Below, one piece after another: positions 6,716 through 30,603 of a stretch of DNA of 64,000 bases. A program made the position numbers and the translations under genes. The notes beneath the pieces are model-generated. The model made no database searches. It saw only the letters and a list, made by a program, of their open reading frames with translations, and was not told the origin of the DNA. Within the stretch, counting starts at the first letter, position 1. Each line of letters starts with the position of its first letter. Source of the DNA: Sulfuricystis thermophila (GTDB lineage Bacteria; Pseudomonadota; Gammaproteobacteria; Burkholderiales; Rhodocyclaceae); contig NZ_AP019373.1 in NCBI RefSeq assembly GCF_004323595.1, positions 1,736,001 to 1,800,000 of the forward strand, written 5' to 3'.

Positions 6716-6732
6716 TGCGACACTTTGTCACT
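6716..6732 (+). promoter_or_regulatory. RegA/RegR/PrrA-like box (degenerate right half)
   Basis: TGCGACACTTTGTCACT has the same 6-5-6 layout as the perfect palindromes at 12504 and 30526. The centre is 33.5 bp before a weak -10 (TAGGCT, 6755-6760), as in the other two promoters. Confidence 0.6.
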
Positions 6733-6797
6733 TCCCGCTCTCTGCCTTAAGCCATAGGCTTGCGCCCTTTCGAAAAGATCGCAAAGGGAGGCGACAC

Positions 6798-8966
6798 ATG
6801 ACCCGCAAGAAACAGCAAGCAAGCCAGTCCAAAAGCACGTGTATCCGCCGCGGCCACCTCGGCATCGTCACGGTGCTTTCGCTCGCCGCCGTGCCCGCAT
6901 GGGCGGGGGATGGCGAGCAGAAGCTCGATGAAATCTCGGTGACCGCGACGCGCGAGGCTCGTCCCACCGGTGAAGTGCCGCATGCGATCAGCGTCGTCGG
7001 CAAGGAGACGCTGCAGGAAAAGAAAATGTTCAACATGAAGGAGGCGCTGCAGGAAATGCCCGGCGTCTTCGTCGATAGCAAGAACGGCGGTTTCGATGCG
7101 CGATTGATCATCCGGGGGGCCGGTCTCAAGGCGCCCTACGGCATCCGCGAGATCCAGGTGTTGCGCGACGGGGTCCCGTTATCCGACCCGGACAGCTTCA
7201 CGCGGCTGGACTTCGTCGATACCCAGGACATCGAGCGCGTCGAGGTCGCCAAAGGACCGGGCAACCTGTTCGCCGCGGGCGCTGCCGGTGGGGCGATCCA
7301 GATCTTTTCGCGCTCGGTGTTCGACGAGCGCGCGAACAACCTGAAGATCGGCTTCGGCAACGACGACACGAAAAATTTCCACCTGCGTTATGGCAAGAAT
7401 TTCGGTGATCAGGCGCTCGCCTTCACCGGCACCTACCGGGCGATGGACAACAGCTGGCGTGCCTGGAACCAGTTCGACACCACCCAGCTGTCATTGAAGC
7501 ACGGCATGCTCCTCGCCAATGACGCCACCTGGGAGAGTGAGCTTTCCTATGCCGAGGCCAATGCCCAGCTGCCCGGCGCGATGGACGCCACGCTGTTCCA
7601 GAATTTTCTTGCCACCGGCAAGCAGACCACGACTTCGGAAGCCTGGAAGCATTCGGGGCGTTACTCGAAGGTCTGGTTCTTCAACACCAAGCTGGAAAAG
7701 GAAGTCGGCGACTTCGTCTTCAAACCGCGGCTCTACTACAACACCTGGTATCACTATCACCCGGTGACCGGCATCATCAATGAGACCGAACAATGGGTCA
7801 GCAACCTCGGCGCCGATCTCGAGGCGCATTGGCGGCACAGCCAGGGCACGCTGGTCGGTGGCCTCACCGTGCGCCAGGAACGCACGCCCGATTCCCGCAA
7901 ATATCAGTACGCCCGAGTGATCACGACGACGAGCGGCGGCCAGTGCCGCGATTCGGCCACGGCCACCGGCCGCATCCTCGCCACCTGTTCGGATGCCAAA
8001 GGGCGGCTGGCGGAAATCGACGATGCGACCGCCCTGCTCACCGGCATCTATCTGCAGGAATCGTGGCGGCCGGGCAAGCGCTGGATCGTCGATGTCGGCT
8101 TGCGTTACGACAAAGTCAAGTTCACCGACGACAACCAGCAATTCTGGCAATACGACTGGGCAACGGGACGATACGTTGCCGGCGCCGGCCGGACCCATAC
8201 GGAAAAGACTTACGATCTGCCGGCGCCGAAGCTCGCGGTGAGTTATGAGCTTGTCGACGGCCTGCATCTCTTCGGCATGCTGGCGCAGGCCGGACAGGTG
8301 CCCTCGCAAAGCGAGTTCTCCAGCAATCCGTCACTCGACGCACCCTTGTCACGCAACAAGGAGATCGGTCTCAAAGGTCGCGGCAGGAGCTGGCAGTTCG
8401 ATACCAGCGTCTATGTCAATGACGTCAGCAGGGAGATCGTGACGGTCAGCAACGGCGGCGTGAACCAATACGTCAACGCCGGCAAGACGCGGCGCAAGGG
8501 CTTCGAGTTCTCGGGCAGCCTCACCGTCGCCGAAGGCTGGGAGCTCGGCGGCTATCTGGGACTGACCGACTACCAATATCTCTCTTTCAGCGAGCCGGTA
8601 CGCGTTGGCAGTACGACCGTCAACATGGATCGTTCCGGCAAGACCTTGCCGTTCATCCCGCGCGAGCAATACGGCCTGTTCGTCGGCTGGAAATCGCCGA
8701 GCGGCTGGAAGGCACGACTCTCTTCCAATACTTGGGGCGAATACTGGCTCGACAACGCCAACACCGAGAAATACCCGGGTTGGGAATGGGTGACCAATCT
8801 CTCGGTGGGCTATGAGCGGCAAGGCCATAGCGTGACGCTCAATGTCGACAACCTGTTCGACAAGCATTACGCGATGGAAGTGAAAAAAGACACCACTGGC
8901 AAAGTGACCTACATGGCCGCAGCGCCGCGGACGGTGATGCTCACCTATCGCTACGACTTCCGATGA
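6798..8966 (+). CDS. TonB-dependent outer-membrane receptor
   Basis: Outer-membrane gated barrel for uptake of a metal or metal complex. It has a signal peptide (cut near AVPAWA), a TonB box LDEISVTATR, a plug domain (IRGAG...REIQVLRDGVPL) and a C-terminal strand ending in aromatic-rich MLTYRYDF. 722 residues is typical. A good ribosome site (GGGAGG) precedes the ATG. The promoter region has an FNR box and a RegA-like box, so expression should rise under low oxygen. The substrate is not shown by sequence; a downstream Fe-S membrane protein and CcdA-like protein in the same operon, plus the shared promoter with the OprC-like gene, point to copper. Confidence 0.88.
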   Translation: MTRKKQQASQSKSTCIRRGHLGIVTVLSLAAVPAWAGDGEQKLDEISVTATREARPTGEVPHAISVVGKETLQEKKMFNMKEALQEMPGVFVDSKNGGFDARLIIRGAGLKAPYGIREIQVLRDGVPLSDPDSFTRLDFVDTQDIERVEVAKGPGNLFAAGAAGGAIQIFSRSVFDERANNLKIGFGNDDTKNFHLRYGKNFGDQALAFTGTYRAMDNSWRAWNQFDTTQLSLKHGMLLANDATWESELSYAEANAQLPGAMDATLFQNFLATGKQTTTSEAWKHSGRYSKVWFFNTKLEKEVGDFVFKPRLYYNTWYHYHPVTGIINETEQWVSNLGADLEAHWRHSQGTLVGGLTVRQERTPDSRKYQYARVITTTSGGQCRDSATATGRILATCSDAKGRLAEIDDATALLTGIYLQESWRPGKRWIVDVGLRYDKVKFTDDNQQFWQYDWATGRYVAGAGRTHTEKTYDLPAPKLAVSYELVDGLHLFGMLAQAGQVPSQSEFSSNPSLDAPLSRNKEIGLKGRGRSWQFDTSVYVNDVSREIVTVSNGGVNQYVNAGKTRRKGFEFSGSLTVAEGWELGGYLGLTDYQYLSFSEPVRVGSTTVNMDRSGKTLPFIPREQYGLFVGWKSPSGWKARLSSNTWGEYWLDNANTEKYPGWEWVTNLSVGYERQGHSVTLNVDNLFDKHYAMEVKKDTTGKVTYMAAAPRTVMLTYRYDFR

Positions 8967-9043
8967 GAGCTTGTGAAAAATTCTGCTGCGCTTGCCATCT
9001 TGGGGTCGGGCGGTGCTCGCGACGAATTTTTTTCACAAGCTCT
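8966..9043. repeat. Palindromic repeat family, short form (copy 2)
   Basis: 78 bp bounded by AGAGCTTGTGAAAAATTC and GAATTTTTTTCACAAGCTCT. It is nearly the reverse complement of copy 3 (32601-32677). Its first base is the last base of the receptor stop codon, and it fills the gap to the next gene. Confidence 0.88.
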
Positions 9044-9052
9044 GAGGCGATC

Positions 9053-9946
9053 ATGAACCTACCCATTGCTTTGCTTTTCTCCTTTCTGGCCATGCCCGTC
9101 CTGGGGCAACACGACCACGCGGCCGAATCGACAGCGGCTGGCAATACCGCCCCCGCGCCCACCCTGCGCGCCACGGCCCAACCCTGGACGCAGCAGCCGC
9201 TGCTGCTGCCCGGCCGCATGGCGCGTGGCGAGCGCAACACCGCCGTGTTGCGCCCTCAGGGGATCGCCGCGACGAGTGTCACGGTGTATGCGCCGGAAGG
9301 GCCACCCGAGCGGCGCAAGGTCGACTACCCGCTCGGCCCCGAGGGGGCGAAGATCGAAGCGGTCACGCCAAAGATCGGCAACTACCACTGGGTAATCGCG
9401 CGCGAGGAAACGCCGAACGAGGTGCGCGTCGCTTCGACGGCCTGGTATTTCGGCAATCCCGGCGCTTCGCCGAAAGTACTGTTGCAGGAAACCAAACACG
9501 AGTTGGAGATCGTCCCCGACCCGCTGCCCCGCGAACATGCGAGCTATCGCGAAAGCGAGCAATGGCGCTTCCTCGTGCGCTTCAACGGTCAGCCGCTGGC
9601 GAACCAGCCGCTTCTGCTCGAGACCGCCTTTGGCACCCGCTCGACGGTATTCACCAACACAGCAGGCGTTGCCACGGTGCAGTTCCCGCGCGATTTCAGG
9701 CCGGCGGGAAAACGGGATGGCGCGCATGAAGATCACGGCCTGCGCCGCGCGCCTTTCGTGCTGTCGACCGTCAAGGAAGCCGATGGCCGCCGCTATCTGA
9801 CCGCCTTCAACCTGAGCTACGGCGAAGCTTCCGACCGTAACCGCAGCCTCGGCTGGGGGGCGGCCTTCGGCCTGATCGGCATGCTGGCCGCCACCCCGCT
9901 GCTGCGTCGCCGCCCTGCCAATCACGGAGAAACGCACCATGCTTGA
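9053..9946 (+). CDS. Secreted protein with C-terminal membrane anchor, unknown function
   Basis: 297 residues. The chosen start at 9053 gives a signal peptide ending at VLGQ, directly followed by HDHAAES. The body looks like a beta-sandwich protein, with a possible carboxypeptidase-like fold (FNGQPLANQPLLLE...FTNTAGVATVQFP) reminiscent of DUF4198/NikM-type metal-uptake accessories. A single membrane helix (WGAAFGLIGMLAATPLL) and a short basic tail end it. An in-frame reading from 8963 would translate the repeat element and was rejected. It overlaps the Fe-S gene by 8 bp. Function is unknown; location suggests metal transfer after TonB uptake. Confidence 0.72.
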   Translation: MNLPIALLFSFLAMPVLGQHDHAAESTAAGNTAPAPTLRATAQPWTQQPLLLPGRMARGERNTAVLRPQGIAATSVTVYAPEGPPERRKVDYPLGPEGAKIEAVTPKIGNYHWVIAREETPNEVRVASTAWYFGNPGASPKVLLQETKHELEIVPDPLPREHASYRESEQWRFLVRFNGQPLANQPLLLETAFGTRSTVFTNTAGVATVQFPRDFRPAGKRDGAHEDHGLRRAPFVLSTVKEADGRRYLTAFNLSYGEASDRNRSLGWGAAFGLIGMLAATPLLRRRPANHGETHHA

Positions 9947-11003
9947 AAAGCTTTTCCCCACCCTGGGTCGCATCCGCTTCGGCGTGCAGATGGTGATGCT
10001 GTTCGTCACCGTCTATGGCAGCGTCTTAGTCGGCACCTACATGGCCGACAAGATCTCCAACGCCCTGCCAGCGCTCTCCTGCGCTTACGACCAGATGAAC
10101 GGCGGCTATTGCGTGCTGGTACCGACCCAACACATTATCCACCACCGCATCGGCGAAGCTCTGGTGCGCGCCCAGCAGCTCACTTTCGGGATGGTGCTGC
10201 CGCTGTTGATGACCTTCGTCTCCTTCTATGCCTTTTTCTTCGTGATCGGCAAGGCCTTCTGCGGCTGGGTTTGTCCCTTGGGCACGCTGCAGGAATGGAT
10301 CGGCAAGCTCGGCCGTCGCCTCGGTTTCGGTCTGCGCCGTCTCGCGCCCAACGATCTCGCTCCGGTCAAGCGCGTGCGGCCGGTGAAATGGTTGATCCTT
10401 TTGGGGCTGGTCTTTCTGCTGCCGCTCCTGACCGGCCTCGGCGTGACACCGCACAGTCTCGGCAATCCCTACTGTGACATCTGTCCCTCGCGTGTGGCGA
10501 CGACCTTGCTGACCGGCAACACCCAGGAACTGGCGTTGCGCGGCAACGACGCGGTGAGCTTCACGCTCGGTGCCATCGCCAATCTGCTCATCGGCTTCAC
10601 CCTCGTCGGCGCGCTGGCCCTGCGTCAGCCGTTCTGCCGCATCTGCCCGCTGCTCGCCTTCAACGCGCTGTTCCAGCGCCTCTCGCCGATGCGCCTCGTC
10701 AAACCTTCGCGCGAGAAATGCGGCAGCTGCCACATCTGCACCGACGCCTGCCCGATGGACATCCCGGAGATCAGCCAGCAGCAGGGTCGCAAGGCGTACA
10801 ACGAAGATTGCACGCTGTGCGGACGCTGCGCGGAGTATTGCCCGCAGGACGGCGTGATCCGGCTCAAGTGGGGGCCGTTCGCGCTGTTTTCCTCCAACCG
10901 CGACTACTACAAGAAACGGGTGCAGCGCGAGTTGCCCGATGGCACGGTGAAACCGGTCAAGTTCGTCAGGAACGCGACGAAAACCGCGAGCGCCGATGCT
11001 TGA
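9939..11003 (+). CDS. NapH/CcoG-like membrane ferredoxin
   Basis: 354 residues. About five membrane helices carry the polyferredoxin-type motifs CGWVCPLG (about residue 108) and CRICPLLA (about 231). Two 4Fe-4S clusters follow (CGSCHICTDACP and CTLCGRCAEYCP). This is the NapH/NosR/CcoG layout; such proteins pass quinol or cytosolic electrons toward the periplasm, and CcoG has been described as a cupric reductase. It overlaps neighbours on both sides by 8 bp, giving a strictly coupled operon with a TonB receptor. Reduction of an imported metal, for example Cu(II), is the favoured inference. A ribosome site GGAGA precedes the ATG. Confidence 0.85.
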   Translation: MLEKLFPTLGRIRFGVQMVMLFVTVYGSVLVGTYMADKISNALPALSCAYDQMNGGYCVLVPTQHIIHHRIGEALVRAQQLTFGMVLPLLMTFVSFYAFFFVIGKAFCGWVCPLGTLQEWIGKLGRRLGFGLRRLAPNDLAPVKRVRPVKWLILLGLVFLLPLLTGLGVTPHSLGNPYCDICPSRVATTLLTGNTQELALRGNDAVSFTLGAIANLLIGFTLVGALALRQPFCRICPLLAFNALFQRLSPMRLVKPSREKCGSCHICTDACPMDIPEISQQQGRKAYNEDCTLCGRCAEYCPQDGVIRLKWGPFALFSSNRDYYKKRVQRELPDGTVKPVKFVRNATKTASADA

Positions 11004-11676
11004 GGACCTTGCCCAAGGCCAGGTGACGCTGGCCACCGTCTGGCTGCTCGGCGTCTCGATGGGGCTCACGGCCTGCACCGTGACCTGTCTGCCCTTCATC
11101 GGCACCTGGGCGCTCGGGCGCGCCTCGAACCAGCGCGAGGCCTTTCTCCATACCGGCGTATTCCTCGCCGGACGGGTGATGAGCTACACCTTGCTGGCGA
11201 TGCTCGCGGCCGCCGCAGGCAAGGGCCTGGCGCAGGCGCTCGGCGGCGTGTGGGGCAACGCCGCCATCGGCACGGCCAGCATCCTGGCGGGGCTATGGCT
11301 GCTGTGGCGTCCGGCAGGTCGGCGACGTGCCGTATCGTCAGCGCCGAGCGTGCAGCCGATCCGCTTTCATCCGCGCCGCAGGAGTGATGGTCTGCCGCCG
11401 CTGTTGCTCGGCGCGGCGCTGACGCTCACGCCCTGCACGCCGCTGGCCTCCTTGCTGGCGCTCTCTGCACAAGCAGCCAGCCCCGCGCAAGGCGCGGCCT
11501 TTGGGCTGGCCTTCGGGCTAGGCGCGGCGATGACGCCGCTCCTCGTGCTGGTGCCGCTCGCCGGTCGGCTCGGCCGCGAGCTCGCTACATCGCGCGCTTG
11601 GCTGACGCGCTGGCTCGGCCTTGCTGCAGCCGGCGTCCTGATCCTGTTGGGCGTGCGCCGGTTATGGCTGGTCTGA
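10996..11676 (+). CDS. CcdA/DsbD_2-like membrane protein
   Basis: 226 residues and about six membrane helices, with LTACTVTCLP in helix 1 and LTLTPCTPLA in the fourth, the symmetric Cys/Pro pattern of CcdA/DsbD-type thiol transporters. It overlaps the Fe-S gene by 8 bp and is the last gene of the TonB-receptor operon. It may pass reducing equivalents or metal to the periplasm. Compared with the paralogues at 5974 and 38443 it lacks the GHCxGMCGG motif. Confidence 0.78.
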   Translation: MLEDLAQGQVTLATVWLLGVSMGLTACTVTCLPFIGTWALGRASNQREAFLHTGVFLAGRVMSYTLLAMLAAAAGKGLAQALGGVWGNAAIGTASILAGLWLLWRPAGRRRAVSSAPSVQPIRFHPRRRSDGLPPLLLGAALTLTPCTPLASLLALSAQAASPAQGAAFGLAFGLGAAMTPLLVLVPLAGRLGRELATSRAWLTRWLGLAAAGVLILLGVRRLWLV

Positions 11677-12503: not shown

Positions 12504-12520
12504 TGCGACGATATGTCGCA
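12504..12520 (+). promoter_or_regulatory. RegA/RegR/PrrA-like box of copper-receptor promoter
   Basis: TGCGACGATATGTCGCA is an inverted repeat TGCGAC-N5-GTCGCA. It fits the published RegR consensus GNGRCRTTNNGNCGC with one mismatch. A -10 hexamer TAAAAT (12543-12548) is centred 33.5 bp downstream. Confidence 0.7.
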
Positions 12521-12584
12521 GAGGACATCACGGACGGCTTCCTAAAATCGTCACGGTTCTTTCGCGCCTTCCATGGAGATCACG

Positions 12585-14859: not shown

Positions 14860-15558
14860 ATGTCCCAGCCGTGCGACGCCGGCCTCGCGCCGGCGTTCGT
14901 CTTCTCCCGACATCGCCTGGCCATGCAACGCGTGTTCAGCCTGTCTTTCGTCCTGCTCCTGCATGCCGCGATCCTCTGGGCGCTTTGGCAGCATCGCCTG
15001 ATTCCCGGCCGAGAGGAGGCGATGACGCTGTTTGTGAATTTCATCGCGCCGCCGGCGATCGAGAAGCCGCCCTCGCCTCCGCCCCCGCCCAAACCGGCCA
15101 GAGCCAAGCCCGCCCCGGCGCCTGCCCCACGGCTGGTGGCCGAAACAATCAGCGTCGCCCCCACAGATTATGTCGCGCCGCCCCCGCCCCCCGAGCCGCC
15201 GCGCATCGAGGCGCCCCTCGCGCCGCCTCCCCCGCCCGCGCCGGCGCCCGCATTGCCGGCCGGACCGGTCGCCTTGGGCAGCGAGCTTGCCGTGGCCTGT
15301 CCCGAGCGCACGCCGCCCACCTATCCGGCCATCGCCCGCCGTCTCGGCGAGGAAGGCACGGTGGTGTTGCGCGTCGAGCTCGATGAAACCGGCGCCGTGG
15401 TCTTTGCCGAGGTCAAGACGAGCAGCGGCGCTCGCCGGCTCGATGAGGCCGCGCTCGCGGCCGTGAAAACCTGGCGCTGCACTCCGGCTCGCCGCAATGG
15501 CCAGCCGGTGCGCGCCACCGCCCTGCAACCCTTCAAATTCGTTCTGCAAGGAAACTGA
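14860..15558 (+). CDS. tonB: TonB energy-transducing protein
   Basis: Inner-membrane-anchored periplasmic protein linking the ExbBD motor to receptors. It has an N-terminal helix (VFSLSFVLLLHAAILWAL with the conserved-type SLSFVLLLH pattern), a long Pro/Ala-rich spacer (about residues 65-140) and a C-terminal TonB domain (YPAIARRLGEEGTVVLRVELDETG...AALAAVKTWRCTPA). It lies 16 bp after the copper receptor and just before exbB, so it is probably dedicated to copper uptake. The start could instead be the internal ATG at 14923, which would shorten the cytoplasmic N-terminus by 21 residues. Confidence 0.9.
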   Translation: MSQPCDAGLAPAFVFSRHRLAMQRVFSLSFVLLLHAAILWALWQHRLIPGREEAMTLFVNFIAPPAIEKPPSPPPPPKPARAKPAPAPAPRLVAETISVAPTDYVAPPPPPEPPRIEAPLAPPPPPAPAPALPAGPVALGSELAVACPERTPPTYPAIARRLGEEGTVVLRVELDETGAVVFAEVKTSSGARRLDEAALAAVKTWRCTPARRNGQPVRATALQPFKFVLQGN

Positions 15559-15564: not shown

Positions 15565-16233
15565 ATGGAACATAACCTCGAGGGCTTCGGTTTTGCCCAT
15601 TTCCTCGGCCAGTGCGACACCGTGGGGAAGACGGTGCTCGTGCTGCTCCTCCTGCTCTCGATCGCCAGTTGGTATCTGATCGTCACCCGGCTGCTCGCCA
15701 ACTGGCTGGACAAGCGCCGCGCAGCCGCCTTCGAAGCCGAATTCGAGCGCGCCTCATCCCTCGATACCCTGCCGCTCGACAAAAACCATGCGCTCGCCGC
15801 TCTGGTCCAGGAAGCCCGCAGCGTGGCGGCCAATGCCGCCGGCCGGGAGCTTTCCGCGGCCGGGGGCTTTGCCGAGGTGCTCACGCGCAGCCTCAACAAT
15901 GCGATCGATGCCGAGATGATGCGCGCCGAGCATGGCCTGACGATTCTCGCCACCGCCGGTTCGGCCGCGCCCTATATTGGTCTCTTTGGCACCGTCTGGG
16001 GCATTTATCACGCACTGGTGCAGATCGGCATGTCGGGCCAGGGCACGCTCGACAAGGTGGCCGGCCCCGTGGGCGAAGCGTTGATCATGACGGCGCTGGG
16101 GCTGGCCGTGGCGATCCCGGCGGTGCTGGCCTACAACGCCTTCCAGCGCCGCAACCGCATGTGGCTCAATCGCCTCGAATCCTTCGCCCACCGGCTTTAT
16201 CTGCGCCTGGCGGTGGAACATGGCCAAGGCTGA
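15565..16233 (+). CDS. exbB: ExbB/TolQ/MotA-type proton channel
   Basis: 222 residues with three membrane helices: an N-terminal helix (TVLVLLLLLSIASWYLIV) and two C-terminal helices around AAPYIGLFGTVWGIYHAL and ALIMTALGLAVAIPAVLAYN, the typical ExbB fold. It uses the proton gradient to energise TonB. It starts 6 bp after tonB and overlaps exbD by 14 bp. Confidence 0.93.
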   Translation: MEHNLEGFGFAHFLGQCDTVGKTVLVLLLLLSIASWYLIVTRLLANWLDKRRAAAFEAEFERASSLDTLPLDKNHALAALVQEARSVAANAAGRELSAAGGFAEVLTRSLNNAIDAEMMRAEHGLTILATAGSAAPYIGLFGTVWGIYHALVQIGMSGQGTLDKVAGPVGEALIMTALGLAVAIPAVLAYNAFQRRNRMWLNRLESFAHRLYLRLAVEHGQG

Positions 16234-16639
16234 TATCTCCCGCCGCCATCACGACGAGCCGATGGCGGCGATGAACGTCGTGCCGCTCGTCGATGTGATG
16301 CTGGTGCTGTTGGTGATCTTCATCGTCACCGCGCCGATCCTCACCCATGCAGTGAAGATCGATCTGCCGAAGGCTTCGTCTGCCGTCAATGTCACAAAGC
16401 CCGAGCACATCGAGTTCGGCATTCGCGAAGACGGCAGTCTGTTCTGGAACGGCGAAACGGTGACGCTCGACCAGTTGCCGCAGCGCTTCGCCATCGAAGC
16501 CGCGAAACAGCCGCAGCCGGAACTGCATATCCGCGCCGATCGTCTGGTCGCCTACGAGAAAGTCGCCAAGGTGATGGCCGCGGCGGCGAAGGCAGGACTG
16601 ACCCGGATCGGCTTCGTTTCCGAGCCGGAGGGGCGCTGA
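16220..16639 (+). CDS. exbD: ExbD/TolR biopolymer transport protein
   Basis: 139 residues. One N-terminal membrane helix contains the essential Asp (PLVDVMLVLLVIFIV, Asp25), followed by the periplasmic ExbD/TolR domain (LHIRADRLVAYEKVAKVMAAAAKAGLTRIGFVSEP). It completes the receptor-tonB-exbB-exbD operon. Confidence 0.93.
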   Translation: MAKADISRRHHDEPMAAMNVVPLVDVMLVLLVIFIVTAPILTHAVKIDLPKASSAVNVTKPEHIEFGIREDGSLFWNGETVTLDQLPQRFAIEAAKQPQPELHIRADRLVAYEKVAKVMAAAAKAGLTRIGFVSEPEGR

Positions 16640-16652: not shown

Positions 16653-17327
16653 TCAGCGTCTTTCGCTCATGACGCGTAGTTGCCCGGCATCGAGCACCCG
16701 CACGTGATCGGTGCCAACCGAAATCGCCCCGCTGTCCGACAGTTCGCGCAGACAACGCGAGAGTGCTTCGGGCGTCATGCCCAGCCGCGAGGCGATGACG
16801 TGCTTTGGCGCGCAAAAGCTGATCACCGTGCCATTACCACAGGAGGCGGCACCCGCGTTGAGCAGATAACTGGCCAGCCGTTTCACGGGCGGATGCAAGC
16901 GGAAATCTTCGAGATCGCGCATGCGGGCATAGAGCCGCGTGGAAAGCTTGACGAGCAGACGTTTGGCGAACTGCGCCGAGCGACCGGACAAAGTGAGTAC
17001 GGCCTCGGCATCGATGTGCAGCAGCCGCGTCGGGGAAAGCGCAGCCGCCAGGTAAGGGTAGGCATTGCCGAGCAGGACGGTCGACACGCCGAACACCTCG
17101 CCGCTGCCTACCAGGTCGATGACCCGTTCCTCGCCGGCCGGCGACTGGCATGCCAGCTTGACGACGCCGGAAAGCACCGCATACATGCCGGTCGGACGAT
17201 CGCCTTTGATGACGATCAGCTCGTCCTTTTCGTAACGTCTTTCCCGTGTCGCAGCGCTCAGCTCGGTCAGCAAGGCCGCTGGCAGCTCTGCAAAGAAGGG
17301 GATTCCCCGCAATTCCTGGCTAGACAT
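16653..17327 (-). CDS. Crp/Fnr-family transcription regulator without FNR Cys cluster
   Basis: 224 residues: a cyclic-nucleotide-binding-like sensor domain (IPFFAELPAALLTELSAATRERRYEKDELIVIKGD) and a C-terminal winged helix (KHVIASRLGMTPEALSRCLREL). The recognition helix keeps E-x-x-S-R, as in FNR/DNR, so it probably reads a TTGAT-like half site. The N-terminus has no FNR-type CxxC...C cluster, so it is nearer the DNR/NnrR or an unassigned subgroup. It is convergent with exbD, only 13 bp away, and could control the copper operons; this is inferred from position. Confidence 0.87.
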   Translation of the reverse strand: MSSQELRGIPFFAELPAALLTELSAATRERRYEKDELIVIKGDRPTGMYAVLSGVVKLACQSPAGEERVIDLVGSGEVFGVSTVLLGNAYPYLAAALSPTRLLHIDAEAVLTLSGRSAQFAKRLLVKLSTRLYARMRDLEDFRLHPPVKRLASYLLNAGAASCGNGTVISFCAPKHVIASRLGMTPEALSRCLRELSDSGAISVGTDHVRVLDAGQLRVMSERR

Positions 17328-19789: not shown

Positions 19790-19793
19790 GTTC

Positions 19794-20964: not shown

Positions 20965-21015
20965 GGTCAGACTCCTTCGTGCTGGTTGAACACGACGACA
21001 GTCTGCGCCGCGCCG

Positions 21016-21053: not shown

Positions 21054-22320
21054 GATCGGTCGCGAGAACACTTTCCGACGCGAAATCCCATAGCTCATGC
21101 GCATCGAGCAGGAGCCGGTAGCGTGCTTCGATGGCATCGATCTGGGCCTGGATGGCCGCCAGGCGGGCTTCGCTCGCTTGCCGACGGGCAAGCTGCAGAT
21201 CACTGTACTGGCCTTCGCCCAAACGCCAGGCTTTTTCGACCAGACGTGCGTTTTCCTCCATCCGCCGCGCCACATCGTCGAGCCTGCGCCATTGTTCGTA
21301 GTGGGCGACCGCCGTGGCAATGGTCTGGCGTGCTTCCGCCTCGGCACGGGCGAGCACCAGCGCCTCGCGCGCCGCGGCGGCATCGGCTTCGGCGCTGGCG
21401 GAGCGGCTCGTCGCGTCACGCGCCTTGCCTGCCAGTGGAATCGACAGATGCACGCCGATGAGGCGTTCTTGCCCATCCCGCTCGCTGCCGAAAGTGAGGC
21501 CGACCGTCGGATCGGGCCAGCGCTCGGCATCGGCACGCGCGGCGGCCAGCCTCGCCCGTTCAGTTTCGCTGCGTGCCAGCGCCAGTTCATGGTTTTCGGC
21601 AAGGATGCGCCGTTGCCACTCGGTTTGTGCTTCCGGCGCAGCATCGATCGCCTGCGGTGGGCCGAGCAGCGGCTGCGCCGGCAGGGTGATGGCAGGAAAT
21701 TGCGCCCGCCATTCGATCGCCACCCGTTCCCGCCGCATCTGTGCTTGGGCGAGCTGGGCCTCGGCTTGTTTGAGCTGCGCCTCGCTCAACATCGCTTCGA
21801 GACGTGCCGTCTCGCCAGCGCCGACTTTTTTCACTGCAGCAGTATGGAGTTCGCGCAGGATCGCGACCTGGGACAGCCACTCGGTGACGGCGGCGGCTTC
21901 CCGTTGCCAGGCGAACCAGCGCGCCAGAAGCTCGCGGCTCGTGGCATGCAGCGCCTCACCCACGGCGTGGTGCGAGACACTCACCTGCGCCTTGCCGAGA
22001 TCGGCATCGAGCGAAGCCTTTCGCGGCAGACGCAGTGTGCGCTCGATACCGAGCTCGTGTTCGCGGTAACGCTGATCGACACTGCGATCACGCCGACTCT
22101 GGGCCGAAAACCGCACGGCAAATTCGTGCGGGCCGGCCACGAGGCCGCTTTCCTGCGCCTTGCCGGCATGCCAGCCGGCAATGGCGGCCCGCACCTGAGG
22201 ATGCGCAGCCAAAGCGGCGATCACCTCTGCGGTGGGCGGCAGATCGGCCGTTTCGGCATGGAGCAGATTGGTGAGCAACAGCACGGCGCTGGCAACGACG
22301 GTGTTCACGAATGTCTTCAT
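21028..22320 (-). CDS. Outer-membrane efflux protein (CzcC/CusC-like, TolC family)
   Basis: 430 residues; the start at 22320 gives a signal peptide (ending LLHA). Long helical hairpins with two OEP repeats (ERTLRLPRKASLDADLGKAQ and GVHLSIPLAGKARDATSRSASAEADAAAA) are characteristic of TolC-family channels. It should complete the RND pump by spanning the outer membrane. It overlaps the DUF3240 gene by 4 bp. A REP-like half unit at 21804-21830 is read in frame as KVGAGETA in the middle of the protein. Confidence 0.88.
   Translation of the reverse strand: MKTFVNTVVASAVLLLTNLLHAETADLPPTAEVIAALAAHPQVRAAIAGWHAGKAQESGLVAGPHEFAVRFSAQSRRDRSVDQRYREHELGIERTLRLPRKASLDADLGKAQVSVSHHAVGEALHATSRELLARWFAWQREAAAVTEWLSQVAILRELHTAAVKKVGAGETARLEAMLSEAQLKQAEAQLAQAQMRRERVAIEWRAQFPAITLPAQPLLGPPQAIDAAPEAQTEWQRRILAENHELALARSETERARLAAARADAERWPDPTVGLTFGSERDGQERLIGVHLSIPLAGKARDATSRSASAEADAAAAREALVLARAEAEARQTIATAVAHYEQWRRLDDVARRMEENARLVEKAWRLGEGQYSDLQLARRQASEARLAAIQAQIDAIEARYRLLLDAHELWDFASESVLATDLKPALSQP
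21804..21830. repeat. REP-like half unit inside efflux channel gene
   Basis: It contains GCCAGCGCCGACTTT; on the coding strand it is read as KVGAGETA. The frame is the same as in the other minus-strand genes carrying this unit. Confidence 0.6.
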
Positions 22321-22631
22321 TGCAAGCTCCCCATCCGGATCACGGGTGTGAGCCACCAGACGCTCTGCGCACTGGCAAGCCCACGATGCAGTTCGGCCAG
22401 CAGTGCATCGACGTAGCTGGCATCGACGAGGATCTCGATACGGATCCGCTCGCTGCGGCCGCGTACTGCTTCGGCGGGTGTCAAACTGCCATCCGGATCG
22501 CCATGGCCTTCGACGCGATGCATCGTGAACGGACCGACCCATTCGGGATGCTTGAGCAGCTCATCGAGCACCTGATCCTTCAGGGCGTTGGGCAGGATCA
22601 GGTTGAGGCAGGTATCGAGACGCTTATTCAT
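22317..22631 (-). CDS. DUF3240-like small protein of metal RND operon
   Basis: 104 residues from the ATG at 22631. The sequence (LILPNALKDQVLDELLKHPEWVGPFTMHRVEGHG... and IRIEILVDASYVDALLAELH) has the beta-alpha-beta layout of PII-like/DUF3240 proteins encoded in Czc/Cus operons. It probably senses or regulates at the cytosolic face of the pump, but no function is established. It overlaps both neighbours by 4 bp, so its translation is coupled to the pump. Confidence 0.78.
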   Translation of the reverse strand: MNKRLDTCLNLILPNALKDQVLDELLKHPEWVGPFTMHRVEGHGDPDGSLTPAEAVRGRSERIRIEILVDASYVDALLAELHRGLASAQSVWWLTPVIRMGSLQ

Positions 22632-25600
22632 CCTGCATCTCCCCAACGACGGTAGAAAATCGGCAGGATGATCAGGGTGAGCAGGGTCGAGGTGACCAGC
22701 CCACCGATGACGACGATGGCCAGCGGCCGCTGGATCTCCGAACCGGGCCCGGTGGCAAAAAGCAGCGGCACGAGACCGAACGCGGCGATCGAGGCCGTCA
22801 TCAGCACCGGCCGCAGGCGGCGCCGGGCGCCTTCGACCACCACCCGTTCGAGCGGCAGGCCCTGGGCGCGCAGCTGGTTGAAATACGAAACCAGCACCAG
22901 GCCATTCAATACGGCGATGCCCAACAGCGCAATGAAACCCACCGAGGCCGGCACCGACAGATATTCGCCGGCGATCAGCAAGGCGAACACCCCGCCGATG
23001 AGCGCGAACGGAATATTGACGAAGACCATCACCGCCTGCCGCAGCGAGCCGAAGGTGGAAAACAGAATATGGAAGATCATGGCCAAGGCTACCGGCACGA
23101 CGAGCATCAGGCGTTTGGCGGCACGCTGCTGGTTCTCGAACTGGCCGCCCCAGGCCAACCGATAACTGGGCGGCAGCGGGATTTCGGCCGCGACGCGCGC
23201 CTTGGCCTCGTCGACGAAACCGACCAGATCGCGCCCCTCGACACTGGCTTGGACGACGGCAAGCCGCTGGGCGTTTTCGTGATCGACCTTGACCGGCCCC
23301 GCCACCCGCTCGAGTCGCGCGAGCAGCGACAGCGGCACCGTCTCGCCACTGGGCAGCGCAATCGACAAGCCGGAGAACAAGGCGGGCGAGAGGCTGACGT
23401 CTTTCTCGCCACGCAGCACGAGCGGGGTGCGCCGGGTGCCTTCGAGCACCAACCCCAGCGGTTGGCCTTCGAGTTGCGCACGCAGCGCCCGGGCGACTTC
23501 CTCCACCGTGAGGCCGAAGCGACCCGCCATCGTCCGATCGATGGCGACGGTGAAATACTGCACTCCCTCATTTTTCACCGTAAGCACGTCCTGCGCGCCC
23601 GGGATCGTGCGCAAGAGCGCGGCGATCTTTTCGGCCAGATCATTGAGCGTGGCAAGATCGGTGCCAAAGATCTTCACTGCCAGATCGCCGCGCGTGCCGG
23701 TGAGCATTTCCGAGACACGCATTTCGATCGGCTGGGTAAAACTGATGTCCATGCCGGGAAATTCTGCCATCACCTGGCGAATCTCGTTGATCAGCCAGTC
23801 CTTGTCCGGCCGGCGCCAGGTCTCGCGTGGCGCCAGCACCAGAAAGCTGTCGGTCTCGTTGAGCCCCATCGGATCGAGACCCAACTCATCGGAACCCGTG
23901 CGCGCGACGATGTCGATGATCTCCGGCACACGTTCGATGAGGGCTTTTTGCACGGCGAGATCCGTGTCGCGGCTCTGTTCGAGTCCGATCGAAGGCAGTT
24001 TGGCGAGCTGCAGCAGGATGTCGCCCTCGTCCATCGTCGGCATGAAGGTCTTGCCGATCTGGGTGAAAGCGCCGATGGCGGCGAAGAGCAGGAGCACCGT
24101 TACGGCGACGACCTTTTTCGCATTGGCCAGACACCAGGTCAGGAGAGGCACGTAGAGGCGCTGCGCGACGGTCGGCAGCCAAGGCTCGTGATGCCTGGCA
24201 TCCGCCTTGAGGAGAAACGAAGCGATCACCGGAATGACGGTGAATGAGAGCAGCAGCGAGCCTGACAACGCAAAGACGATGGTGAGCGCCACGGGCACGA
24301 ACAGCTTGCCTTCGAGCCCCTGGAGCGTCATGAGCGGCAGGAAGACGATGACGATGATCGAAATGCCGGCTACCACCGGCACCGTCACTTCGCGCACGGC
24401 GCGGTAGATGCGATGCAGAAAAGGCAGGCGTTCGCCGGCAGGATCGGCAAGCCGCGCCTCGACGTTTTCCACCACCACCACGGCGGCATCGACCAGCATG
24501 CCGATGGCGATCGCCAGACCACCGAGGCTCATCAGGTTCGCCGACATGCCAAAGAAATGCATCAGGATGAACGTGATGAGCGCTGCGAGTGGCAGCACGC
24601 AAGCGACGGCGATCGCCGCACGCAAGTTACCCAGAAAGGCCAGGAGCAACACCAGCACCAGGACGATCGCCTCGACCAGCGCTTTGGAAACGGTGCCGAT
24701 CGCCCGCTCGACGAGCGCGCCGCGGTCATAGAAGATCTTCGTCGTCACCCCCGGCGGCAGTTGTGATTGGATCTCGGCGAGTTTGGCCCGCACGCTCTCC
24801 ACCACGGCCCGGGCATTCGCCCCGCGCAAACCCAGCACCAGCCCTTCGACGGCTTCCTCATTGCCGCCATGGGTGACGAAACCATAGCGGGTGAGACTGC
24901 CCACCCGCACATCGGCGACGTCTCCCACCCGGGTGATGTGCGAAGCATGCCCGGCATGAGGATCCGGCACGACGATCGAGCGCAAATCCTCCAACGTCTT
25001 GACGCTGCCTTCGACGCGCACCAGCCAGGCTTCCTCACCCTCGGTGAGACGGCCAGCGCCATCGTTGCGGTTGTTCGTCACCAGCGCGCGTTCGAGATCG
25101 GCCAAGGTGAGTCCGCGCGCTTTCAAAGCCAGCAGATTGGGCACCACCTCGAAAGTGCGCACATGCCCCCCCAAGGCATTGACATCGGCCACTCCCGGCA
25201 AGGTCCTCAACTGCGGGCGGATCACCCAATCGAGCAGCGCACGTTTTTCGGCCAGTGGCAGATCACCCTCGATGGTAAACATCAGCATCTCGCCCAAGGG
25301 TGTGGTGATCGGCGCCAGCCCTCCTGAGACGTCGGTTGGGAAATCCTTCATGACCCCATTCAAACGCTCGGAAACCTGTTGGCGTGCCCAGTAGATATCG
25401 GTGCCATCGACGAAATCGAGCGTGATGTCGGCGATCGCATATTTGGCCACGGCCCGCATCATGCGCTGGTTGGGAATGCCCAGCATCTCCAGCTCGATCG
25501 GCGTGACGATGCGCGCCTCGACCTCCTCCGGCGTCATGCCCGGCGCCTTGACGATGATCTTGACCTGCGTCGAAGAGACGTCGGGGAAGGCATCGATCGG

Positions 25601-25702
25601 CAAGGCGCGAAACGCATAAATGCCGGCGCCGACCATCAGCAAGGTGGCGATGATCACTAAAAGGCGCTGCGTCAGCGCAAACTCGATGAGCTTTTGGAAC
25701 AC
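22628..25702 (-). CDS. Heavy-metal efflux RND pump (CzcA/CusA family)
   Basis: Inner-membrane proton/metal antiporter of 1,024 residues with 12 expected helices and two large periplasmic loops. Helix 4 reads GGLAIAIGMLVDAAVVVVEN: it has Ala-Ile-Gly and Asp-Ala-Ala rather than the CzcA DFG...DG, so it is not a classical Co/Zn/Cd pump. The helix lacks CusA's AIGAMVDAAIVMIEN Met pattern, and the porter loop has GSDELGLDPMGLNETD. The substrate therefore cannot be assigned between monovalent and divalent metals. It is 3 bp from the adaptor gene. Confidence 0.92.
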   Translation of the reverse strand: MFQKLIEFALTQRLLVIIATLLMVGAGIYAFRALPIDAFPDVSSTQVKIIVKAPGMTPEEVEARIVTPIELEMLGIPNQRMMRAVAKYAIADITLDFVDGTDIYWARQQVSERLNGVMKDFPTDVSGGLAPITTPLGEMLMFTIEGDLPLAEKRALLDWVIRPQLRTLPGVADVNALGGHVRTFEVVPNLLALKARGLTLADLERALVTNNRNDGAGRLTEGEEAWLVRVEGSVKTLEDLRSIVVPDPHAGHASHITRVGDVADVRVGSLTRYGFVTHGGNEEAVEGLVLGLRGANARAVVESVRAKLAEIQSQLPPGVTTKIFYDRGALVERAIGTVSKALVEAIVLVLVLLLAFLGNLRAAIAVACVLPLAALITFILMHFFGMSANLMSLGGLAIAIGMLVDAAVVVVENVEARLADPAGERLPFLHRIYRAVREVTVPVVAGISIIVIVFLPLMTLQGLEGKLFVPVALTIVFALSGSLLLSFTVIPVIASFLLKADARHHEPWLPTVAQRLYVPLLTWCLANAKKVVAVTVLLLFAAIGAFTQIGKTFMPTMDEGDILLQLAKLPSIGLEQSRDTDLAVQKALIERVPEIIDIVARTGSDELGLDPMGLNETDSFLVLAPRETWRRPDKDWLINEIRQVMAEFPGMDISFTQPIEMRVSEMLTGTRGDLAVKIFGTDLATLNDLAEKIAALLRTIPGAQDVLTVKNEGVQYFTVAIDRTMAGRFGLTVEEVARALRAQLEGQPLGLVLEGTRRTPLVLRGEKDVSLSPALFSGLSIALPSGETVPLSLLARLERVAGPVKVDHENAQRLAVVQASVEGRDLVGFVDEAKARVAAEIPLPPSYRLAWGGQFENQQRAAKRLMLVVPVALAMIFHILFSTFGSLRQAVMVFVNIPFALIGGVFALLIAGEYLSVPASVGFIALLGIAVLNGLVLVSYFNQLRAQGLPLERVVVEGARRRLRPVLMTASIAAFGLVPLLFATGPGSEIQRPLAIVVIGGLVTSTLLTLIILPIFYRRWGDAG

Positions 25703-25705
25703 GGC

Positions 25706-26788
25706 TCAATCCTCGGCAGCGCCCAGACCCAACCACACCGCCTTGATCGCCGCCGCCCCCTTGACGGCAATCCGAGCCTCTCGAGGCAGCGACGTCGCGA
25801 TGCGCGTGACCTCGGCCGTCTCGGCGACCACCTCGACCGGCTCGGGACGAAAACCGCCATCGGTGGCGACGAACAGCCAGCTCTTGCCCTGATGGCGCAC
25901 CAGCGCCGCAACCGGTACTGCGATCGAGCCGGCCTGCCGCTCCTTCGCTAGCTGCGCCTCGACGAATTGAAAGGGCTTCACACAACCGGCGGGGTCGGCC
26001 AATTCGGCCCGGATCACCACGGATTGGCTTGCCATTTGCAGCTGGGGGGCGATGAGCTTCACCTGCGCTCTTTTGGCGCAGCCCGGCACCATGACCGTAT
26101 CCCCCGGCGCAATCCCCGCCGCCTGGGTGGCGCTGGCTTGGATTTCGAGCCACAGCGGCGCGATGCGGGCGAGTTTGACGAGCGGCATCTGGGCATCGAC
26201 GCGCTGGCCAGCTTGCACCGGGGCTTCGAGCACCACGCCAGCAAACGGCGCGCGCAACCATACCGTATCGCTGGTCGTGCCGGACTCATGCGCTGGCGGC
26301 AGATTCGCCAACCGCAAGGCCTGCCGGCGCTCATCGAGCCGGGCAAGCGCTTCCCGCTCCGCGGCACGGGTGGCCGACAGACGCGCCTGGCTGATGATGC
26401 CATCCTGAAACAACGCCTCGTCACGGCGGCGATTCTCCTCGGCAAGCGCCGCCTGGGTTTTTGACTCGACGAACGCCCGTTGCGCTTCGAGAAAAGCCGC
26501 GCCCTGCAAGCGCACCAACGGCTGACCTTTCGCGACCGGCTCGCCGTAGGCGACCGCGACTCTCGCCACCATGGCCGGCAAGGGTGCCGTCACCACCTCG
26601 ATTTGCCCGGGCGGAATCACCACCTGCGCCGGCAGGCGCAGCGTGCCAGCACGCTCCTTTTGACCCAGCGGCTGGACGACGATGCCCATCCGTGCCGCCT
26701 GCTCCGGCGTGATACGCACCAGGGCCTCTTCGGCTGCCTGGGCGACAGCGAACCACGACAGGGCAGCAAAGATCAACAACGAACGCAT
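25706..26788 (-). CDS. RND periplasmic adaptor (CzcB/CusB-like)
   Basis: 360 residues with a signal peptide (ending AVAQA). A barrel-sandwich/lipoyl region (VVTAPLPAMVARVAVAYGEPVAKGQPLVRL), a helical hairpin (AQRAFVESKTQAALAEENRRRDEALF) and a beta-barrel (WLRAPFAGVVLEAPVQAGQRV) occur in the order expected for membrane-fusion proteins. Lacks a His-rich metal-binding N-terminal extension. It bridges the pump and the outer-membrane channel. Confidence 0.9.
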   Translation of the reverse strand: MRSLLIFAALSWFAVAQAAEEALVRITPEQAARMGIVVQPLGQKERAGTLRLPAQVVIPPGQIEVVTAPLPAMVARVAVAYGEPVAKGQPLVRLQGAAFLEAQRAFVESKTQAALAEENRRRDEALFQDGIISQARLSATRAAEREALARLDERRQALRLANLPPAHESGTTSDTVWLRAPFAGVVLEAPVQAGQRVDAQMPLVKLARIAPLWLEIQASATQAAGIAPGDTVMVPGCAKRAQVKLIAPQLQMASQSVVIRAELADPAGCVKPFQFVEAQLAKERQAGSIAVPVAALVRHQGKSWLFVATDGGFRPEPVEVVAETAEVTRIATSLPREARIAVKGAAAIKAVWLGLGAAED

Positions 26789-28131: not shown

Positions 28132-28280
28132 GAGAGCGTCTTCTTCGGTAGCGGTATCTTCCCAATGCCTCGTAACAATGCCATGTTCGCTCGGCATCAG
28201 GCTGTTTCGGTTTGTTTCCGCGCGTTTCATGTCATTTCCGCAGCAACGTTTTCCGCTGTCGGCGCGCTACACTGGAAAAC

Positions 28281-29000
28281 ATGAACGGCATCAGGCAGAA
28301 CCACATTCTCGTCGTCGATGACGATCCTGCATTGCGAGAGCTGCTGAGCGATTACCTCACCACCCATGGCTTCATCGTGCAGGCGGTCGGGGATGGTGCA
28401 GCGATGCGAGCGGCGCTTGCCAACGGCATGCCCGATGCCATCGTGCTCGATCTGATGTTGCCCGGCGAGGATGGTCTCGCGCTGACGCGCAGCCTACGCG
28501 CACAATCCAACGTGCCGATCCTGATCCTTTCGGCACGAGGCGAGGAGATCGACCGTGTCATCGGTCTCGAGGTCGGTGCCGATGACTATCTCGCCAAACC
28601 CTTCGGGCCGCGAGAATTGCTCGCCAGGTTGCGCGCTCTGCTCAGGCGCGGCCAGGCCACCCGGGAAGCGACCGCCTTACCGACGGTAGAACATCGTTTC
28701 GGCCCTTTCGTCCTCGATCTCGCGGGTCGGCGATTGCTGCGCGGCAGCGCGGAAGTCCACCTCACCGGAGCGGAATTCGATCTGCTCGCCGCCTTCGTCA
28801 CGCGCCCAAACCGCGTGCTCTCACGTGACGTCCTGGTCGATCTCCTGAAAGGTTATGACCGCGATCCTTTCGATCGCAGCATCGACATTCGCGTCACGCG
28901 CTTGAGACGCAAGATCGAGCCCGACCCGGCCGCGCCGGTTTATATCCGCACCGTGCGTGGTGAAGGATACCTGTTCAACCCACGAGGGGGGTCTGCTTGA
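28281..29000 (+). CDS. OmpR-family response regulator
   Basis: 239 residues from the ATG at 28281. The receiver domain has ILVVDDDPALREL, the phospho-Asp in IVLDLMLPGEDG and Lys in DYLAKPFGPREL. The winged helix has LTGAEFDLLAAFVTRPNRVLSRDVL and RSIDIRVTRLRRKIEPDP. It is closest in pattern to OmpR of the EnvZ/OmpR kind. The paired kinase follows, but MITE copy B now lies at the junction and touches the stop codon. The two secreted-protein genes divergent from it are candidate targets. Confidence 0.92.
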   Translation: MNGIRQNHILVVDDDPALRELLSDYLTTHGFIVQAVGDGAAMRAALANGMPDAIVLDLMLPGEDGLALTRSLRAQSNVPILILSARGEEIDRVIGLEVGADDYLAKPFGPRELLARLRALLRRGQATREATALPTVEHRFGPFVLDLAGRRLLRGSAEVHLTGAEFDLLAAFVTRPNRVLSRDVLVDLLKGYDRDPFDRSIDIRVTRLRRKIEPDPAAPVYIRTVRGEGYLFNPRGGSA

Positions 29001-29209: not shown

Positions 29210-30518
29210 GCACGCTCCTACCCTCGCCCGGCAAAACACCTGGCTGTTGGCGATGACCTTTATGCTGGTGGAGGTTTTTGTGACAGCATTGCTGGGTTTT
29301 TTTTTGATGTTGCCCATGGCGCGCCGCGCCGCGGATGACCTGGCCGGCCTGATGATTCTCTCGGCCCAGACCTGGGTGGAATTGCCACCGCAAACACGTC
29401 CCGCGTTCGAGCGCGAGCTGTTGGCGAATCATCAACTGGCATTGCGCGACACGCCGGCGGGCAAGGGACGCGACGAATGGCATCCACCATTTTTCTATTT
29501 GCTCGAAGATGCGCTGGGCAGACGACTGGGACATCCCCTCCACCTGGCAAGCGAAACGACGGCCGCTGGCATCTGGTACTGGGCCGATCTGCCTGCCGGG
29601 GAAGGTTTCCTCGCCGTGGGTCTGCCGCGTGCGCGGATCGCGACTCAGCCTCTGCCAGCCTTGATGCTAGCAATCGGCGGCAGTTTCATGATGGCCATCG
29701 CAATCGCCGTTTGGCTCGCCCGACGCGTCACGGCTCCCCTCTCGCGTCTGGACGAGGCAGCGGCACGCATCGGTCATGGCGAGCGACCCGAGCTTTTACC
29801 GGAAACCGGTCCGCGCGAGCTGGCCGCACTTGCCCGCCGTTTCAATGCGATGGCGCTCCAAGTGCGCGACCTGCTGAGTGCCCGCACGACGCTCTTGGCC
29901 GGAGTTTCCCACGATTTGCGCACACCGCTCGCACGCATGCGCCTGGCACTCGAAATGCTGAAGAGCAACCCTTCCGCAGCCTTGATCGCCCGTATCGACA
30001 ACGACATCGAGGAAATGAATGCCTTGATTACGACACTACTCGATCTGGCACGAGGCCTGGAAAGCGAAACGCCGGTGGATACCCATCTTGCCGAGATGCT
30101 CGCCGAGCTCGCCGAAAACTACCGGACATTTGGCCGCTCGCTGACAATTCGCTGTCCGCAAGGCATCCATTGCACGCTGCCACGCCGCTCGCTCATCCGA
30201 GCCATAGGCAATCTACTGCAAAACGCCATACGTTACGCACCAGACGGCGAGATCGAGCTGGTATGTGAGAAGGAAGGAGAAAATTGGCGGATCGGGGTGC
30301 TCGACCGTGGCCCGGGCATCCCGGCCGAGCGAATCGCTACGATGTTCGAGCCGTTCCAGCGACTGGACGATTCCCGTAGTCCCCAGACGGGTGGTGCCGG
30401 GCTCGGTCTCGCCATCGTGCGCGAGCTGGCAAAAGCCAATGGCTGGCAGGTGCGGCTGGAAAACAGGAAGGACGGTGGGCTGGCGGTATGGATCGAATCG
30501 ACGCGAGCCGTGATCTGA
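29154..30518 (+). CDS. Sensor histidine kinase (EnvZ-like), 5' end inside MITE
   Basis: Up to 454 residues. Helix 1 (WLLAMTFMLVEVFVTALLGFFLML), a periplasmic domain, helix 2 (LMLAIGGSFMMAIAIAVWL), HAMP, H-box GVSHDLRTPLARM, N-box IRAIGNLLQNAIRYAP, and G-boxes DRGPGIP and GGAGLGLAIV are all present. The first 18 residues from the ATG at 29154 are encoded by MITE copy B, so the native start was lost or altered. The ATG at 29253 would start within helix 1 and is an alternative. Partner of the upstream OmpR-type regulator. Confidence 0.8.
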   Translation: MIVSPAHRASARSNGQSGLHAPTLARQNTWLLAMTFMLVEVFVTALLGFFLMLPMARRAADDLAGLMILSAQTWVELPPQTRPAFERELLANHQLALRDTPAGKGRDEWHPPFFYLLEDALGRRLGHPLHLASETTAAGIWYWADLPAGEGFLAVGLPRARIATQPLPALMLAIGGSFMMAIAIAVWLARRVTAPLSRLDEAAARIGHGERPELLPETGPRELAALARRFNAMALQVRDLLSARTTLLAGVSHDLRTPLARMRLALEMLKSNPSAALIARIDNDIEEMNALITTLLDLARGLESETPVDTHLAEMLAELAENYRTFGRSLTIRCPQGIHCTLPRRSLIRAIGNLLQNAIRYAPDGEIELVCEKEGENWRIGVLDRGPGIPAERIATMFEPFQRLDDSRSPQTGGAGLGLAIVRELAKANGWQVRLENRKDGGLAVWIESTRAVI

Positions 30519-30525
30519 ATCCTTC

Positions 30526-30542
30526 TGCGACATTTTGTCGCA
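30526..30542 (+). promoter_or_regulatory. RegA/RegR/PrrA-like box of nosL promoter
   Basis: TGCGACATTTTGTCGCA is a perfect inverted repeat. Its inner 15 bases fit the published RegR consensus GNGRCRTTNNGNCGC at every position. The -10 TATATT (30565-30570) is centred 33.5 bp downstream, as in the two TonB-receptor promoters. No good FNR box is seen 40 bp further upstream. Confidence 0.78.
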
Positions 30543-30603
30543 TCCCGTTCATTGCAGAACCGCTTATATTGCATTGCATGATCAACTCTGAAGGAGAAGC
30601 CTC

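Follow-up and report, generated by a model that had tools for sequence, protein, structure and literature searches.

A putative RegA operator shared by copper-linked promoters of Sulfuricystis thermophila

Nitrous oxide (N2O) reductase requires copper, and the matching of copper import to low-oxygen respiration in denitrifiers is poorly understood. We analysed a window of 64,000 nucleotides from Sulfuricystis thermophila (G000:C1:1736001-1800000 of a single-contig genome of 2.74 Mb; site coordinates are counted from the start of the window), in which the promoters of a TonB-dependent receptor operon (tonB1), an OprC-like copper receptor gene (oprC) and a tandem nosL pair share one palindromic box, TGCGACA-N3-TGTCGCA. 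We consider it highly probable that this box is the operator of RegA, and that RegA activates genes of copper import and delivery with an FNR-type helper at the two receptor promoters. Regulation of the RegA/PrrA type, as put forward in the initial annotation of the window, is supported by a RegB/RegA pair encoded in the genome, by the PrrA-type helix-turn-helix (HTH) of its RegA, by conservation of the box and by its linkage to RegA genes. Since the spaced site is shared and the same site stands before regBA in many relatives, copper supply appears to be tied to low-oxygen respiration via RegA.

The palindrome at three promoters and across the genome

All three palindromes lie, to the base, where the initial annotation had placed them, and its measurements held as well. 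The palindrome centre is 33.5 bp upstream of the centre of a -10-like hexamer at every promoter, and perfect FNR boxes stand 40.5 bp upstream of the palindromes of tonB1 and oprC (Table 1). The nosL site matches the RegR consensus GNGRCRTTNNGNCGC in full (15/15), and the oprC and tonB1 sites match it at 14/15 and 13/15. The box was scored out of 14 letters, with the same pattern reversed as control; the tonB1 site has two mismatches to this form. Within the window, TGCGAC-N5-GTC gave 5 strand matches at 3 places (shuffled mean 1.09; at least 5 in 1/100 dinucleotide shuffles), and TGCGACANNNTGTCGCA with up to two mismatches gave 4 matches, namely the three sites and 57954 (shuffled mean 0.61; 4 reached in 1/100 shuffles). 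A -10-like hexamer as good as these at a single shared offset in the three promoters arose in 28/20000 mononucleotide shuffles. TAGGCT of tonB1 is a poor -10 when taken alone, but it occupies this 33.5-bp position in 3/4 orthologous promoters, own included. No -35 element was visible by eye in the box promoters listed for spacing.

Exact TGCGAC-N5-GTCGCA occurs at 5 places genome-wide, and 5/5 are upstream of genes. From the place at 1733937, same-strand genes reach the left end of the window and encode an FtsX-type permease, an ABC ATPase, a thioredoxin, a copper-type P-ATPase (3418-5961) and a DsbD_2 protein. One-mismatch forms lie at 11 places, three of which were read (nosZ copy 2, a methanethiol oxidase gene and 376370).

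The RegB/RegA pair and the distribution of the box

The RegA-type regulator that the initial annotation called for is encoded in the genome (G000:C1:1977095-1977613, minus strand), adjoining a RegB-type kinase gene. The protein matched NF033791 over positions 2-170/173 at 181.6-181.8 bits (next family 80.8; curated cut-off 250 not reached), and the best match of the kinase was NF033792 at 229.7 bits (curated cut-off 350 not reached). The HTH of RegA aligns with that of PrrA (1umq) at E 3e-14, with MHRRTLQR identical, and the kinase has a GGATNP segment and a Cys after the H-box. The regBA locus (1977.1-1978.9 kb) follows two siroheme decarboxylase-type genes and has a box in the gap upstream of regB. 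Scored against the published motifs as quoted in PMC5506826, 8 genome sites reached 13-15/15 for RegR, 15-17/17 for PrrA and 13-15/15 for RegA, and the RegR motif was complete at nosL and regB. A second RegA-like gene (2516174-2516695; L032, L249), with an altered recognition segment (HTH ERRSLQRKL), was set aside, as the stretch read holds no box of at least 11 and no RegB motif adjoins it.

Among 80 loci of oprC relatives, 78 had upstream DNA; L125 and L135, where the locus begins inside the gene, were dropped. The best box reached at least 12/14 in 33/78, and the reversed pattern did so in 2/78. The cultivable relative Azonexus hydrophilus DSM 23864 scores 12/14 at oprC and encodes RegA. 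With RegA presence in these genomes set at 150 bits or more, a box of at least 11 was accompanied by RegA in 32 and stood without it in 4, whereas a box of 10 or less was found with RegA in 0 and without it in 42 (Fisher p 8e-18, uncorrected for kinship). The four box-only exceptions are all metagenome-assembled genomes (MAGs). One of them, L124, reaches 11/14 only and may be a chance match, and L088 and L098 have near sisters with RegA (L091, L104). Perfect palindromes, counted over whole genomes, were present in 17/32 RegA-bearing genomes (31 places) and 6/46 RegA-less genomes (6 places), with the reversed control in 3/78. In 41 relatives, own genome included and RegA counted from 180 bits, there were 26 perfect places against 3 for the reversed control; a perfect box occurred in 16/23 genomes with RegA versus 0/18 without, two of the 18 holding RegA-like genes of 125-130 bits. 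At least two genomes are common to both sets (G004 = G060 and G006 = G042, with identical coordinates). A box of at least 12 was also found in 15/16 nosL-relative promoters read, own included.

The box recurs before regB itself. After 8 unoriented and 2 duplicate loci were dropped, 52 of 62 RegA loci read remained, and the 320 bases at their regB end contained a box of at least 12 in 24/38 loci with a RegB motif and 6/14 without one (reversed control 0/52). In L268 and L270, a RegB-type kinase gene next to regA and an OprC-like gene are divergent over one shared box; these kinases scored 147 and 152 bits against NF033792, below its cut-off.

For spacing, the best -10 hexamer was searched 14.5-73.5 bp from the box, and 3 unoriented regions, boxes below 11 and duplicate sequences were dropped. 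L211, whose gene start is not at the expected place, was removed from the orthologous promoters read and from the spacing count, and L213 (second paralog, box 9/14) from the spacing count. The best -10 of nosL promoters lay at 33.5 bp in 11 (TANNNT) and at 34.5 bp in 4 (n = 15), and TATATT was present in 9 of the 16 read. At oprC (n = 35) the best -10 stood at 34.5 bp in 17 and 33.5 bp in 7, and at regB (n = 34) at 44.5 bp in 11, 45.5 bp in 5, 43.5 bp in 2 and 33.5-34.5 bp in 6. These distances suggest two spacing modes about one helical turn apart, as for an activator touching polymerase from one DNA face. A universal spacing of 33.5 bp is ruled out by nosZ and by most regB promoters.

Perfect TTGATNNNNATCAA (TTGAT-N4-ATCAA), the FNR-type box, occurs at 9 places genome-wide (reversed control 0), 3 of which are within 50 bp of a RegA-type box: tonB1, oprC and nosZ copy 2. 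The last has a distance of 44.5 bp, a geometry unlike that of the receptor promoters. An FNR-type box of 9-10/10 stands at 40.5 bp in 3/4 orthologous tonB1 promoters, own included. When the best FNR match was taken in each of the 78 oprC upstream regions, the 40.5-bp pair appeared only in L058 (10/10) and L084 (9/10). Nearby FNR-like boxes were found in three of the 16 nosL-relative promoters (39.5, 39.5 and 50.5 bp) and more distant ones in three (85.5-138.5 bp); in this genome the nosL promoter lacks one (best 7/10). A general rule coupling FNR site and box is ruled out, the 40.5-bp pair being absent beyond close kin. Joint control by RegA and FNR, as first proposed for the copper promoters, is supported by sequence at two of the three, at one nosZ copy and in close relatives, and is not general. 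The FtrB/DNR-like gene convergent with the oprC genes is a candidate for the protein that uses the FNR-type boxes.

Proposed regulation and competing explanations

From the sites, their spacing, their conservation and their linkage to regBA, we infer binding, activation, start sites and the RegB signal (quinone, thiol or copper) as follows. By analogy with its family, RegB would be active in the reduced quinone/thiol state and would phosphorylate RegA. A RegA~P dimer would bind the palindrome centred near -43 and recruit sigma-70 polymerase where an obvious -35 is wanting. It would turn on outer-membrane copper import through both TonB-dependent receptors, one of which has a TonB/ExbBD set of its own, together with tandem NosL for copper delivery and the copper-ATPase operon, and would act on regBA itself from about one helical turn further upstream. 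An FNR-type protein near -83 would add a second low-oxygen input at both receptor promoters. The expected output is copper import and delivery timed to N2O reductase synthesis.

A broader idea, possible though less likely than not, is that in Rhodocyclales, Thiobacillaceae and their neighbours RegBA may be chiefly a copper-acquisition regulator with one rigid operator, which would lie near -43 at copper genes and roughly a helical turn farther upstream at regBA. The regulon would take in TonB-dependent copper receptors, NosL, the copper-ATPase operon and nosZ, possibly joined by SCO1 and PCuAC genes. RegB, which has a Cys following the H-box, may sense copper besides redox. The back-to-back arrangement of kinase gene and oprC over a shared box (L268, L270) fits such a role.

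Several results weigh against RegA as the protein, or against activation as its action. The loose patterns show no genome-wide excess: TGCGACANNNTGTCGCA with up to two mismatches has 27 places versus 28 for the reversed control, and TGCGAC-N5-GTCGCA with up to one mismatch has 16 versus 31. Whether the motif exceeds random frequency received a divided answer, with loose matches at control level on one side and, on the other, the position of all exact places upstream of genes, retention of the box at orthologous promoters and at regB, and its tracking of RegA presence. As judged from sequence, the signal is in the strict matches, their position before genes and their conservation; loose pattern scans were dropped as evidence of enrichment. 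Both proteins of the pair score below the curated cut-offs of the RegA and RegB models. Within the genus of the window itself, a box of at least 12 precedes regB in 8/15 oriented loci, and the remaining 7 lack any of at least 11. The best -10 lies at other distances in 11/35 oprC promoters and outside 43.5-45.5 bp in 16/34 regB promoters, and neither nosZ box shows the 33.5-bp distance to a -10.

The promoter of nosZ copy 2 has its FNR box 32 bp upstream of TAGATT (class II) and its RegA-type box across the presumed start, where RegA could act as a repressor. RegA might then be mainly a repressor, or mixed in action, repressing nosZ and keeping copper genes down in oxygen. The position of this box behind a class II FNR site and the aerobic nos repression by R. 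capsulatus RegA (PMC5359404) agree with such a role, but at oprC, tonB1 and nosL the box has an activator position upstream of the -10, with no -35 by eye, and we regard predominant repression or a mixed role as unlikely.

The co-occurrence of box and RegA is clustered by lineage. On the receptor tree, the starred branches yield 4 independent pairs (on average 2.8 concordant, 0 discordant and 1.2 without difference), and a phylogenetically corrected test is without power. With so few independent pairs, kinship is a possible cause as far as the co-occurrence alone is concerned, and the box might serve another DNA-binding protein co-inherited with RegBA. The window offers two OmpR-type two-component systems: the regulator at 28212-28997 is upstream of nosL, and the end of its kinase gene lies directly ahead of the nosL promoter; that at 18521-19174 is beside CusABC-like genes. 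OmpR-type sites are usually direct repeats, which argues against these regulators. The frequency of the box at the regB end of RegA loci and its fit to the published RegA, PrrA and RegR motifs further reduce this explanation to a small probability.

Palindromes also occur where RegA does not. Six RegA-less genomes (of 46) have one perfect palindrome each; the palindrome of L261 belongs to the MAG of L088. In L251, L253 and L255 (Hydrogenophaga, another Comamonadaceae and Tepidimonas) it adjoins a response regulator gene of the sigma-54 type (domains Response_reg, Sigma54_activat and HTH_8), and L253 and L254 have a molybdopterin oxidoreductase gene in the neighbourhood of the palindrome. A second protein, perhaps with a Fis-type HTH, may thus use the same sequence in other lineages. 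That an NtrC-family (sigma-54) activator with such an HTH uses the palindrome as its upstream activating site at the copper promoters is very improbable: these mostly have a sigma-70 -10 at 33.5/34.5 bp, too near for an enhancer, and the oprC box is absent in 42/46 RegA-less genomes. Chance likeness of three GC-rich palindromes, which would suit the loose genome-wide counts, is scarcely conceivable, since conservation across genera together with the spacing already contradicts it.

Target genes and comparison with known systems

Table 1 Control sites, genes behind them and further genome matches. Positions are counted from the window start unless marked (genome). Exact and one-mismatch matches are to TGCGAC-N5-GTCGCA.
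Feature	Position	Strand	Match	Context
FNR-type box TTGATCGAAATCAA	6677..6690			centre 40.5 bp upstream of RegA-type box of tonB1
RegA-type box TGCGACACTTTGTCACT	6716..6732		12/14	tonB1 promoter
-10-like hexamer TAGGCT	6755..6760	+		33.5 bp from box centre; tonB1
TonB-dependent receptor, 722 aa	6798..8966	+	Pfam PF00593, PF07715	first gene of inferred site-1 operon (tonB1)
327-aa protein	8963..9946	+	weak DUF4198 match, E 0.0019, under curated cut-off	
Polyferredoxin-type membrane protein, NapH/NosR-like	9939..11003	+	sub-threshold match	
DsbD_2-type membrane protein	10996..11676	+	PF13386	
FNR-type box TTGATCGAGATCAA	12465..12478			centre 40.5 bp upstream of RegA-type box of oprC
RegA-type box TGCGACGATATGTCGCA	12504..12520		13/14	oprC promoter
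-10 hexamer TAAAAT	12543..12548	+		33.5 bp from box centre; oprC
OprC/NosA-like TonB-dependent receptor, 756 aa	12573..14843	+		CxxxM (ACPNHMN) and HxM (DHYMD) segments
TonB-type protein	14860..15558	+	PF03544	
ExbB-type protein	15565..16233	+	PF01618	
ExbD-type protein	16220..16639	+	PF02472	
Crp/Fnr-superfamily regulator, FtrB/DNR-like	16653..17327	-	sub-threshold	convergent with oprC genes
RegA-type box TGCGACATTTTGTCGCA	30526..30542		14/14	nosL promoter
-10 hexamer TATATT	30565..30570	+		33.5 bp from box centre; nosL
NosL-family protein 1	30604..31233	+	PF05573	
NosL-family protein 2	31233..31757	+	PF05573	
Exact match	812709 (genome)			precedes nosZ copy 1
Exact match	1733937 (genome)			between hemA and small gene; precedes copper-ATPase operon
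Exact match	1748504 (genome)			precedes oprC
Exact match	1766526 (genome)			precedes nosL
Exact match	1978897 (genome)			precedes regB
One-mismatch match	817424 (genome)			nosZ copy 2
One-mismatch match	1563017 (genome)			methanethiol oxidase gene, PCuAC gene nearby
One-mismatch match	376370 (genome)			inside permease-like coding frame

Operons in the window were assigned from strand and distance. The best family of the site-1 receptor is siderophore-type, at a sub-threshold score, and it is by context that copper is its presumed cargo. In the OprC-like protein, the CxxxM and HxM copper-ligand segments were read directly in the protein sequence. This receptor scored 123.9 bits against TIGR01778, and because the cut-off of 472.45 is missed we call it OprC-like only, an outlying relative. 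Its closest named relative is from a Rhodocyclaceae MAG (L084; 87%).

Copper acquisition systems are less known than defences against copper excess (PMC6769254). Pseudomonas OprC/NosA is an outer-membrane copper receptor with CxxxM-HxM ligands, anaerobically induced and copper-repressed (PMC8610252). The receptor described here has CxxxM and HxM in common with it, and RegA is not named as a regulator of OprC/NosA in the available portion of that paper. In B. japonicum, nor, nos and copCAB are under RegR control during denitrifying growth; the purified protein binds the nosR promoter, and the norC promoter has putative FixK2 and RegR sites (PMC4064962). Control of nos and copper genes by a RegA-family protein would be common to both organisms; unlike that regulon, the one proposed here has a nearly perfect palindrome, in most cases at a set distance from the -10, and TonB-dependent receptors as predicted targets. 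RegA-family sites are degenerate where described (PMC4064962). Acidithiobacillus ferrooxidans likewise has RegBA outside the Alphaproteobacteria, and its RegA has several direct targets for which no motif could be predicted (PMC5506826), whereas one clear motif is found here.

With Rhodobacter RegA/PrrA the present system shares the RegB/RegA pair, nos in the regulon and sites that fit the quoted RegA and PrrA motifs. R. capsulatus RegA is an aerobic repressor of nos genes (PMC5359404), whereas activation is proposed here. It also binds copper (PMC9147068). The HTH Cys of PrrA in the 1umq alignment is His in the RegA of this genome, so a copper-driven disulfide at Cys156 is probably absent, provided that the two cysteines correspond, and a copper-sensing role like that considered for the HTH cysteine in R. 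capsulatus RegA was judged unlikely here.

Links between RegA, nos and copper are thus already known. Neither the copper-uptake arm, with RegA acting on TonB copper receptors, nor the rigid operator turned up in the titles and opening abstract lines of the literature searched, whose coverage was incomplete. If the proposed regulation is correct, a palindrome mostly at a fixed -10 distance would allow RegA regulons to be predicted from sequence in many bacteria, and in organisms with Sec-type (clade II) nosZ regulation would couple copper supply directly to N2O reduction.

Some further features were recorded. Two nosZ copies of the Sec-dependent type lie about 5 kb apart (L221, G000:C1:809000-821000; L001, L006). 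They are similar in the stretches read, differ in N-termini and promoters, and have a tandem box pair upstream of each; the pair looks like a recent duplication or gene conversion. Between the copper-import promoters, 18518-26788 of the window encodes an OmpR-type two-component system, a diheme cytochrome and a CusA-type RND efflux set. In other genomes, perfect boxes stand about 0.6 kb (L142) and 0.3 kb (L263) upstream of SCO1/SenC genes and 1.2 kb from a PCuAC gene (L260). One RegA-bearing genome has seven boxes of at least 12/14 in 9 kb (L220, G039:C1:2058500-2067500), which surround genes of small secreted proteins with AHTRL near the N-terminus; the two that were scanned gave no Pfam match.

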